Positions 11,132 through 14,031 of a stretch of DNA of 63,447 nt are shown in pieces. Location: NCBI GenBank assembly GCA_937891465.1, contig CALAHF010000226.1, positions 1 through 63,447 of the forward strand, in the 5' to 3' direction. The notes beneath the pieces were generated by a model. The model did no database searches. It saw only the letters and a list, made by a program, of their open reading frames with translations, and was not told where the DNA came from. Each line of letters opens with the position of its first letter. Position 1 is the first letter of the stretch. The stretch is from an uncultured Verrucomicrobiales bacterium (GTDB lineage: Bacteria > Verrucomicrobiota > Verrucomicrobiia > Verrucomicrobiales > DEV007). A program made the translations under genes and the position numbers.

Positions 11132-11881
11132 CTACTTTGCAAGTGCGAGCAGCATCTCACACTTCGAGACGACTACGCCGCCGGGCTGTTCCACGGTGAT
11201 GGCAAATGCGTTGGGCTCGTTGATTTCGAGCTTGGCATTGATCGGAATGATGATCGTATCATTGCTGGCAACATTGAAAACGCCTCCATCAACTGGGTTT
11301 TCATCACGCTCGGGATCAAAAATCCAGAGCTGAAATTGCTGAGCGGCAGGATCGTTTAGATTCAACCCAGTTAGTTTCATGTAGCCTTTTTGCAGCTGAT
11401 CGCTCCAGACAACTTCTCCGTTCAATTCACCGTGTGAAGCCTCGAGTCGCGCGAATTGGAGCCGGTTCGCTCCTGAATCTTGATCAACAGCAGCGACGAT
11501 AGCAGCAGAATTTCCGTCCGAGTTTGGGTCGGCAGAATTTTTCACAAAAAAGGCAATTGCAAAACACGCCGCGACAACCCAGCCAACTCCGGGACGGGCG
11601 ATCCAGCAAGATGGCTTCTTTTCGGAAATCGGCGTGATTTTTTCGCGCTGTTTGGCTTCGGCAACGGCGCTGGCTTTTACGGAAAAGGGAATGGCTTCCT
11701 GTTCCTCGCCTTTCATGGCCAATTCCACGGCAGTGACTAATTGATCGAGCGGGATAGATTCCGAAGCGGTTTCTCCATGCTCCGCCTTCAATTCCTGCCA
11801 CTTAGCTTCCTCTTCGCTGCTTAAATTTCCAAGCGTACGACCGGCATCGAGTTCTAAAAATCTTTCGGTAGAGTGGTTCAT
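11132..11881 (-). CDS. Anti-sigma factor, RskA type (orphan)
   Basis: 249 residues. The N-terminal 80 residues form the Glu-rich zinc-less anti-sigma region (ERFLELDAGRTLGNLSSEEE). One membrane helix follows at about residues 97-112 (VGWVVAACFAIAFFV). The C-terminal periplasmic part matches the RskA/anti-sigma-K domain, with YMKLTGLNLNDPAAQQFQLW near residue 165. Such proteins hold an ECF sigma factor at the membrane. Its ATG overlaps the TGA of the preceding small frame as ATGA, the usual sigma/anti-sigma coupling. Only a fragment of the sigma factor remains, so the anti-sigma factor appears orphaned unless another sigma factor is its partner. Confidence 0.85.
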   Translation of the reverse strand: MNHSTERFLELDAGRTLGNLSSEEEAKWQELKAEHGETASESIPLDQLVTAVELAMKGEEQEAIPFSVKASAVAEAKQREKITPISEKKPSCWIARPGVGWVVAACFAIAFFVKNSADPNSDGNSAAIVAAVDQDSGANRLQFARLEASHGELNGEVVWSDQLQKGYMKLTGLNLNDPAAQQFQLWIFDPERDENPVDGGVFNVASNDTIIIPINAKLEINEPNAFAITVEQPGGVVVSKCEMLLALAK

Positions 11882-12084
11882 CGAGTTTCGGTGGTTGTGG
11901 GTTGTTCGAATGAATCGGCGAGCTGTTTTCTAAGTTGCAGCAGTCCGCTGCGCAGCCGGGTTTTGAAACTCCCAGCACTGACGGCTGTGTCGACGATGTC
12001 TTTGTCACCAGCTTTCGCGGAAATAACAACGGTTCCGATGCAAACGTTAAGAAGGAAGGTTTTGATAGTTTGATAGGTCTTCAT
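11878..12084 (-). pseudogene. Chimera: FAS1 protein leader fused to the tail of an ECF sigma factor
   Basis: A 68-codon frame. Residues 1-25 look like a signal peptide ending in ISAKA. Residues 26-41 (GDKDIVDTAVSAGSFK) match the typical start of a secreted fasciclin (FAS1) domain. From residue 42 the sequence reads TRLRSGLLQLRKQL, which is the C-terminal helix of ECF sigma region 4 (normally GTVKTRLRxGL). The shared KT codons around 11958-11970 look like the deletion joint. The stop overlaps the anti-sigma start (ATGA), as expected for an intact sigma gene. I infer a deletion that removed most of a FAS1 gene and most of the downstream sigma gene. The product, if made, is unlikely to act as a sigma factor. 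Confidence 0.75.
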
Positions 12085-12318
12085 TATTTTCTTTTTGGTG
12101 TTGGTGTGTTTTTTCGAATCGGTCGAAAAAGAAGACCGGGCCCGGTTTCGATTTATGACTTCACAGAGGTATTCGTAAACTTTCGGAATTTGGATTTCAG
12201 AAAATTAGATTTTTTTCAAAAACGCATTTCAACGGCAAAAGCACGACCTCAGCTCCCCAAATTGAATGAAGTGATTTTTTTTGAATCCAAAAACCCAAAC
12301 CAGGCGAATAAAGTGGCG

Positions 12319-14031
12319 ATGAAATCACCCAATCAAATCTCAGCTGGATCTTTCAGACAAAAAATACTCTGCAGTCTCGCGATCGTCTTCATGGCGATCC
12401 CAGCCACACAAGCCGCCGACCCGGCTGAAGCCAAAACCATCGGGCGGTTCGTCCGTGAACAGGCTGACCTTTCCGGTTTTCTCCAACTCTTGGAAAAAAC
12501 CGAAACGGGCTCTCTACTTTCCGAAAAAACCAACGTTCGATTCACTGTGTTTGCGCCGACTGACGCCGCAATCGCTAAACTTCCTGAAGGCGCGATCGAA
12601 ACCCTGCTTGATCCAAAGAACGATGATCGCCTCGAAGAAGTCTTCGGGTTTCATGTGCTAGGCCGAGCTGAACCAGCGTTCGCCCTTGAGAAATATTCGC
12701 TGCTCCAAATGACGACCAGACAGTTTCTTGAAATTGATTATAAGGCTGGAAAGGTCGGCAACGCCACGCTATCAGGCCGTGTTATTCCTTGCTCAAACGG
12801 CATCGTTTATGTCATCGATGACGTCTTGATGCCCAACACAGATGACCTTTTTCAGCGACTGCAAAAAGACGGCCGATTCAAGATCTTCACCCGGGCGATC
12901 ACCGCAAGCCGACAGGGCAAATTGTTTCAGAACATGCATTCTCGATACACGGTTTTCGCGCCGACAGATGACGCTTTTGGCAAGTTGCCCGCTGACTTCT
13001 TGGAGTCTCTCTTTCTTCCCGAAAACGATGAGCGTCTCGAAGACATTATCAAACACCACATTACAGAAGGCATCTTCGCCGCGGGAAAAGTGCCCAGTTA
13101 TTCAAGTCTCGGCGTGACCGAAATTACGCCGATTTCAGCCTTTGGCCAGCAGCTCAATTTCAAAGTCCGCGACGGCAAACCCTCTATCGATGACGCCACT
13201 GTGCTCGAAACGGATTTGCCCAGCGCAAACGGCGTCATTCACGTCGTCGATTCCGTGCTTTGGCTCGCTGAAGAAAGCGTCATGGATCTCCTGAAAAAGG
13301 AAGAAAAATACAGCACTTTAGTGAAGCTACTCCAAGTCACGAGTCTCGACACTGCCGTCGCCTCCTCGTCTCAATTCACCGTTTTTGCGCCGTCCAACGC
13401 GGCGTGGGAAAAAAGCCCGTATCAAGCATGGATTAACGATCCGACGGGTGAAAATCGTGAGAAACTTTGCGGCCTCATTTCCCGCCATGTCATCACCGGA
13501 AAGCACATCAGCGAGAATCCCCTTCCCTTCAACAAGCTCCGCACCATTCATGACGCGCCGATCTATTTGCTACGTGAAGACGGCCAATCCACCATCAGCG
13601 GGCTCAACATCGTAGAAACTGACCGCGAAGCATTTAATGGCTTGGTAAACGAAATTGACGGAGTCATTACAGACGGTCTCGAACTTCCCGAAGGTGACAT
13701 TTCAGGAGTCGATGCGATCAAATTTCTGCAAGACAGCCTTGAGCAGGGTAAAACAATCTATGAAGAAGGTTCCCCTGAAAAAACGTGGCGTTTCTTTCAC
13801 AAACAGGGCTACGAATTCCTCAGCAAATACAGCGAGTTCATAGACAAAGATAACAACCGTGCTTTTCGGACAGCCATCCGTGACGATCAGCCTGTGTATC
13901 GATTTTCAGCCGAAGCTTGGGATTCAAGAAATGCATTCCGCAATCTGTTGCGCAAAATCGAGCAGTCCGAAGATCGCCTCCTCGATCAATTTTTGATGCA
14001 GCGCCCCGCCGAAAAACGCTTCGGCCGCTAA
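12319..14031 (+). CDS. Secreted protein with three fasciclin (FAS1) domains
   Basis: 570 residues. A signal peptide (ILCSLAIVFMAIPATQA) is followed by three FAS1 domains, each marked by the conserved TVFAPTDAA/NAA block: about residues 77, 213 and 352. Each ends with the conserved V/I-H-V-V/I-D/DGV strand. A C-terminal helical region of about 100 residues (EQGKTIYEEG...) has no family I recognise. FAS1 domains mediate adhesion to other proteins or surfaces. The start at 12319 is chosen because the upstream in-frame sequence crosses the divergent chimera gene and lacks homology. It is divergent from a decayed FAS1 gene, so two FAS1 genes once stood head to head here. Confidence 0.85.
   Translation: MKSPNQISAGSFRQKILCSLAIVFMAIPATQAADPAEAKTIGRFVREQADLSGFLQLLEKTETGSLLSEKTNVRFTVFAPTDAAIAKLPEGAIETLLDPKNDDRLEEVFGFHVLGRAEPAFALEKYSLLQMTTRQFLEIDYKAGKVGNATLSGRVIPCSNGIVYVIDDVLMPNTDDLFQRLQKDGRFKIFTRAITASRQGKLFQNMHSRYTVFAPTDDAFGKLPADFLESLFLPENDERLEDIIKHHITEGIFAAGKVPSYSSLGVTEITPISAFGQQLNFKVRDGKPSIDDATVLETDLPSANGVIHVVDSVLWLAEESVMDLLKKEEKYSTLVKLLQVTSLDTAVASSSQFTVFAPSNAAWEKSPYQAWINDPTGENREKLCGLISRHVITGKHISENPLPFNKLRTIHDAPIYLLREDGQSTISGLNIVETDREAFNGLVNEIDGVITDGLELPEGDISGVDAIKFLQDSLEQGKTIYEEGSPEKTWRFFHKQGYEFLSKYSEFIDKDNNRAFRTAIRDDQPVYRFSAEAWDSRNAFRNLLRKIEQSEDRLLDQFLMQRPAEKRFGR

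Follow-up and report, generated by a model that had tools for sequence, protein, structure and literature searches.

In the Mycobacterium tuberculosis complex, the sigma factor SigK has a small regulon, to which the FAS1-type antigens MPT70 and MPT83 belong; the anti-sigma factor RskA controls SigK and can activate it as well (PMC7509140, PMC10540498). The title of a reference cited in PMC10540498 indicates that a start-codon mutation of sigK lowers MPB70 and MPB83 in BCG strains. The circuit described here is like the mycobacterial SigK/RskA-MPT70/MPT83 (MPB70/MPB83) system in two respects (PMC10540498, PMC7509140, PMC9861118): the genes for an ECF sigma factor and RskA lie together, and the regulon is small and autoregulated, with FAS1-type secreted proteins in it. 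By analogy, the circuit is predicted to work like the mycobacterial one. However, mpt83-dipZ-mpt70 forms a second locus in mycobacteria, whereas in many relatives here the sigma operon begins with a FAS1 gene, and the sigma gene of the locus under study has, unlike sigK, been removed by deletion. With the NCBIfam SigK model (NF007228), the intact sigma factors of two relatives, L049 and L003, reach 97.0 and 100.9 bits, well short of the cut-off of 226. The best solved relative found with the sigma profile is RpoE (ECF SigE) of Rhodobacter sphaeroides, the partner of ChrR, at 93 bits, against 75 bits for the SigK of 4NQW. The anti-sigma factor here differs from ChrR in that it matches RskA_C, with no ChrR family among the matches listed.

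A sequence-only reading of the DNA had proposed a link between FAS1 proteins and an anti-sigma circuit. The link is borne out by the operon in relatives and is of a known kind, as control of FAS1 proteins by SigK/RskA is already described in mycobacteria (PMC10540498, PMC7509140). Among the matches listed in the open-licence literature, none concerned a FAS1-ECF-RskA operon in Verrucomicrobiota, and the combination of fasciclin, Verrucomicrobia and sigma factor gave 0.

The window, that is, the whole stretch of 63,447 nucleotides that was analysed, most likely carries a loss-of-function deletion at this locus. We put at roughly four in five the probability that it holds a decayed SigK/RskA-like circuit, in which one deletion of about 1 kb left RskA without its cognate sigma factor. 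The features concerned are the following.

11132..11881, minus strand: intact RskA-type anti-sigma gene, its start overlapping the stop of the fused gene (ATGA, 11878-11881); Pfam RskA_C, orthologues in relatives.
11878..11958, minus strand: the part of the fused gene that comes from sigma (final region 4 helix, C-terminal tail and stop); alignments with four relatives and L049.
11959..11964, minus strand: deletion joint, codons K41-T42 (AAA ACC), from codon-by-codon comparison with the FAS1 and sigma genes of relatives; the break is not placeable within the shared bases.
11959..12084, minus strand: codons 1-42 of the fused gene, which come from FAS1 (a signal-peptide-like leader followed by the first residues of FAS1); alignment with L002-L005 and L049.
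12131..12149, minus strand: inverted repeat with the core CCGGGCCCGG in the fused gene's leader, found in L049 too; direct reading and leader folding.
12169..12198, minus strand: ECF-type promoter-like motif GAAATCC-N16-CGAATAC before the fused gene; matrix score 25.8.
12282..12311, plus strand: ECF-type promoter-like motif TGAATCC-N16-CGAATAA before the triple-FAS1 gene; matrix score 35.8, the highest among the 126,800 positions of the window's two strands.
12319..14031, plus strand: triple-FAS1 protein of 570 residues with a signal-peptide-like start, a divergent candidate regulon member; Fasciclin 215 bits in 3 stretches.

The minus-strand open reading frame at 11878-12084 encodes 68 residues (MKTYQTIKTFLLNVCIGTVVISAKAGDKDIVDTAVSAGSFKTRLRSGLLQLRKQLADSFEQPTTTETR). 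It had been taken for a FAS1 leader joined to the tail of an ECF sigma factor, and the alignments agree: the initial 41-42 codons of a secreted FAS1 protein with a single domain are followed in frame by the last 26 sigma codons, and each half aligns to its own family. Codons 1-42 can be aligned to the FAS1 leaders of L002-L005, with K28-V35, G38, F40, K41 and T42 invariant; the counterpart in L049 is KDIVDTAVAAGSFET, in which E replaces K41 and 25/42 residues are identical. Codons 41-55 (KTRLRSGLLQLRKQL) match the last helix of sigma region 4 in the same four relatives, and the L049 counterpart is KTRLRKGLLQLRKQL. Profiles made from the five relatives recover both halves, FAS1 at 31 bits (profile positions 3-42) and sigma at 19 bits (163-188). 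Because each half falls short of domain length, a Pfam search of the 68 residues returned zero domains at E<=1, and an NCBIfam search gave only a chance-level match to FabI, at 15.3 of 337 bits and far under the cut-off. The fused gene thus has only the first residues of a fasciclin domain (PF02469), and in place of an ECF sigma factor with regions 2 and 4, both present in the sigma factors of L049 and L003, the window has just the last region 4 helix. A serine at the usually basic position of the sigma tail might have indicated relaxed selection, but this idea was dropped, as 2 of the 52 tails that fit the strict pattern have it too. Nothing points to a conserved 68-codon gene: the fused form is absent from the other loci examined, which were reached with queries other than the 68-residue protein itself.

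Intact operons in five relatives, L049 among them, have the order FAS1-sigma-RskA, in keeping with the ancestral order that had been postulated. At the joint, the FAS1 proteins of L002-L005 read G(S/K)FKT-L and their sigma factors GTVKT-R, and the window reads GSFKT-R. The bases common to the FAS1 and sigma genes at this point number nine in L002 (TCAAGACAC) and fewer in L003-L005, and the implied loss relative to L002, L003, L004 and L005 is 971, 973, 935 and 973 bp, respectively. The proposal of a single deletion at shared KT codons thus holds against these four relatives, where the KT codons of FAS1 and sigma are in phase with each other; L049, the fifth relative, has GSFET at this site of its FAS1 protein, with GAG ACT as the codons for ET. 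Since the phase is shared, the joint falls in frame and selection is not needed to explain it.

These comparisons suggest the following course. The ancestor would have had one FAS1-sigma-RskA operon, transcribed by its own sigma factor from a promoter of the TGAATCC-N16-CGAA type, and a divergent triple-FAS1 gene under the same type of promoter. Recombination between the few bases that FAS1 and sigma share at their KT codons would then have deleted about 1 kb in one event, and with it the greater part of FAS1, the gap between the genes and almost the entire sigma gene. The short open reading frame, which keeps the ATGA overlap, could couple translation into rskA. The outcome would be an RskA without its cognate sigma factor, and both promoters would be silent or weakly read by another sigma factor, which amounts to a sigma-null state.

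RskA_C is matched in the window's anti-sigma protein at 39.9 bits against a curated cut-off of 29.4, which qualifies it as RskA-type; the NCBIfam equivalog model 'anti-sigma factor' gives 44.3 of 100 bits, under its cut-off, and no cognate sigma gene adjoins it in the window. The predicted ATGA overlap with the preceding gene is indeed there. It is also found in L002-L005, whereas L049 instead has a gap and a Shine-Dalgarno-like AAGGAG. On direct reading, no Shine-Dalgarno sequence is obvious before the window's rskA start, and therefore translation of RskA probably depends on the overlap. A simple consensus scan of 11800-12500 found no sigma-70 promoter for rskA on the minus strand. The AlphaFold model of the window's RskA (mean pLDDT 74.5) has helices at residues 3-17, 22-35, 45-56, 66-81 and 97-116, with residues ~41 to 120 mostly of low confidence. 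A structure search with this model gave zero PDB matches at E<=0.001, and a profile search of the PDB with RskA returned no RskA chain. The window's genome has no second RskA of the same family at E<=0.001.

The orphan RskA shows no accelerated change relative to its L049 orthologue: departures confined to the window and to L049 number 2 and 2 in the N-terminal part, 2 and 3 in the linker, and 3 and 2 in the C-terminal part. The triple-FAS1 gene is likewise intact, with no accelerated change seen; its singleton departures are 33 in the window, 34 in L110, which is another deep branch, and 0-6 in the other nine counterparts, a sampling that permits nothing further. That neither RskA nor triple-FAS1 has decayed fits either a recent event or continued use, between which one genome cannot discriminate.

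Upstream of many of these operons stands the motif TTTTGAATCC-N16-CGAAnAC, whose boxes are common to the FAS1 leaders of many relatives. They resemble the boxes of the mycobacterial SigK promoter, which we take to be CCATCC...CCGAAT. When the gap was left free between 10 and 22, 80 of the 96 motif matches had a spacer of exactly 16 (84 loci, duplicates included, drawn from the best 80 of 454 candidates plus four). The scoring matrix was built from 76 distinct sites with the motif core fixed in training, and so only the spacer preference and the position count as independent evidence. A site scoring at least 20 lies upstream of sigma in 54 of 81 loci and is missing from 27/81, a count that is not independent, as the matrix was trained on the same loci. 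Two divergent copies are kept in the window, and the third-best window position scores 10.5, far under 35.8 and 25.8. The GAAATCC variant found before the fused gene also precedes the FAS1 gene of L049, with a score of 20.0. Short GC-rich hairpins of differing sequence are frequent in FAS1 leaders, with z below -1 in 28/46 leaders when compared with simple base shuffles. On the divergent side of L250, L262 and L264 there are two back-to-back motif copies, and the neighbouring gene appears by eye to encode a larger protein of the sigma-70 family; this arrangement suggests a possible sigma cascade.

The divergent gene, whose start had been placed correctly at 12319, encodes complete fasciclin domains in 3 stretches (Pfam). 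Its counterparts adjoin the same operon in ten loci (L055, L061, L062, L065, L067, L096, L103, L108, L110 and L111), with 57-63% identity over 554-581 columns, which is near full length. By sequence, the sigma operons and the triple-FAS1 genes are preceded by the same motif, with its fixed spacer, in relatives as in the window, and the idea of a FAS1 regulon gains support from both the shared motif and these counterparts. In the window, L065, L088 and L110, the ATG lies 10-12 bases past the CGAA box of triple-FAS1, and the mRNA may be nearly leaderless there (12305-12319 in the window); this would not apply to L067, where the likely start is farther off. Across the window's genome, the exact pattern TGAATCY-N16-CGAA has 21 matches against 1 in a backward control. 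By the matrix, only 12282(+) among the exact-pattern loci is consensus-like, the next scoring 15.1. With up to 2 mismatches, there are 26 matches against 3 in the control, an excess that is not fully explained; scored by the matrix, the best of the 26 besides the window site reaches 21.1 and lies inside a coding frame. Neither the pattern searches nor the matrix scoring gave a convincing further site in this genome, and a wider regulon was thus not supported.

An RskA search of 57 genomes gave five strong matches (E<1e-40), including the window's own, and a second search gave 454 candidates in genome contigs, of which the best 80 were used, a top slice and not a random sample. Together with four from the first search these make 84 loci, 81 of them distinct, as L002, L004 and L003 recur letter for letter in L066, L071 and L078, respectively. 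In this set (best 80 of 454 plus four), all 81 distinct loci have a sigma match no more than 250 bp from RskA, and in 80 of them it exceeds 100 bits. A FAS1 match is present in 69/81, and in 61 of these it is on the same strand and at most 1.2 kb upstream; at least two of the 12 loci without FAS1 (L072 and L073) start just before sigma. The closest RskA in the set, 62-63% identical to that of the window, belongs to L049, whose order is FAS1-sigma-RskA with an N stretch within the FAS1 end. L049 comes from another genus of the family (genome G071), and identity to the genus-mate G001 (L003) is ~36-41%. With the patchy distribution of the circuit, this greater closeness to another genus could point to horizontal transfer or to old duplicates. 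Circuit matches among the best 80 of 454 also occur in planctomycete, acidobacterial and gammaproteobacterial records.

Within the family, the RskA profile matched in 16/74 genomes (E<=1e-15) and strongly in 10/74 (E<1e-70, the window's genome included); most members thus do not have the circuit, and its absence is tolerated there. In the order, where the best six or fewer candidates per genome were scored, 54 RskA matches (E<=1e-45) were found in 53 of 386 genomes. The DNA around all 54, a set that overlaps the 81 loci, was examined, and 50 adjoin a sigma gene of more than 100 bits; loss of sigma beside RskA is rare. The four exceptions are the window, with its 19-bit remnant; L261, where the sigma gene is cut by the contig end (92 bits); L271, where positions 1117-1863 encode only the C-terminal part of RskA, joined to unrelated sequence, and which is probably a chimeric contig; and L251 (= L092; genome G289, record CALFSW010000072). 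At 4471-4977 of L092, the sigma gene has a gap of ~170 bases and two in-frame stops, and FAS1 (95% identical to L090) and RskA (79%) are intact. L092 is a second, independent loss of sigma beside an intact RskA; unlike the window, it keeps FAS1, made no fusion gene and has an intact operon copy elsewhere in its genome (L090 = L232). Among the 50, one in-frame stop interrupts sigma in L098 (1363-1940; = L247), with FAS1 and RskA intact; this may reflect either another loss of sigma or an error in sequencing. In L268 (1560-1740) most of FAS1 is deleted, and the promoter-like motif and a C-terminal FAS1 remnant are followed by intact sigma and RskA.

The cognate sigma factors of the five relatives score 325, 310, 303, 294 and 289 bits by profile, and a profile search found no orthologue of them elsewhere in the window's genome, an assembly that is 95.6% complete. 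Its best score is 108 bits and that of a second ECF paralogue 105 bits, and with these two proteins at hand the orphan RskA might still be in use, restraining or modulating another ECF sigma factor that also reads both retained promoters. Both promoter-like sites are well preserved, RskA and triple-FAS1 are free of frame damage, and RskA changes no faster than in L049, as would be expected if this were so. However, all five relatives, which still hold the cognate sigma factor, have secondary paralogues (passing E<=1e-25) of 94-114 bits, and the two ECF paralogues are therefore not specific replacements. The best matrix scores at their loci, 9.8 and 18.4, are also not before the sigma gene. We regard continued use as unlikely, and we give still less credence to an assembly artefact or a minority population variant, with the deletion not fixed in the organism. 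The joint does rest on one assembly, a fragmented draft of 229 contigs, and the order search included one locus, L271, that resembles a chimera; yet the joint is in frame and 11.9 kb inside a 63-kb contig, the bases in common (no more than nine in any relative compared) would be short for an assembly collapse, and the orthologous sigma gene was found on no other contig.

The fused gene might also be a functional small gene under selection, for example a leader that couples translation to rskA, given a frame free of stops and an RskA without a clear ribosome-binding site of its own. This seems somewhat less probable again, as the fused form is known from one genome only and the shared codon phase already accounts for its frame. 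A further thought starts from the way in which these proteins meet. In anti-sigma factors of the RskA class, helix 1 contacts sigma region 4 and helix 4 contacts sigma region 2, and within the SigK group the sigma factor has a leucine (L177 of SigK) that pairs with one in helix 1 of its anti-sigma factor (PMC7406223). By alignment, the sigma helix retained in the window includes the L177 position as L48 of the fused protein (the offset of 17 being deduced from cysteine 183), and so the peptide, if it partly escaped export, might act as an anti-anti-sigma decoy, occupying the orphan RskA and releasing the new partner sigma factor of RskA. The signal-peptide-like leader argues against this, and we consider it very improbable; if it were true, a new component for signalling would have arisen in a single step, from one deletion. 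The reading that we prefer is thus a loss of the sigma factor by deletion.

Of more general bearing than the deletion, which is a loss in a single genome, is the conserved FAS1-sigma-RskA module together with its motif. What is new is the motif with a fixed spacer before many of these operons; two divergent copies of it survive in the window, one ahead of the fused gene and one ahead of triple-FAS1. The link between FAS1, sigma and RskA is widespread, though patchy, in Verrucomicrobiota and comes with a precise candidate promoter. The window would represent a natural sigma-null FAS1 regulon, in which promoter-like sites and the anti-sigma factor remain and for which the intact relatives are controls. 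Two questions thereby become testable: what role an anti-sigma factor has after the loss of its partner, and why FAS1 proteins are tied to such sigma factors.
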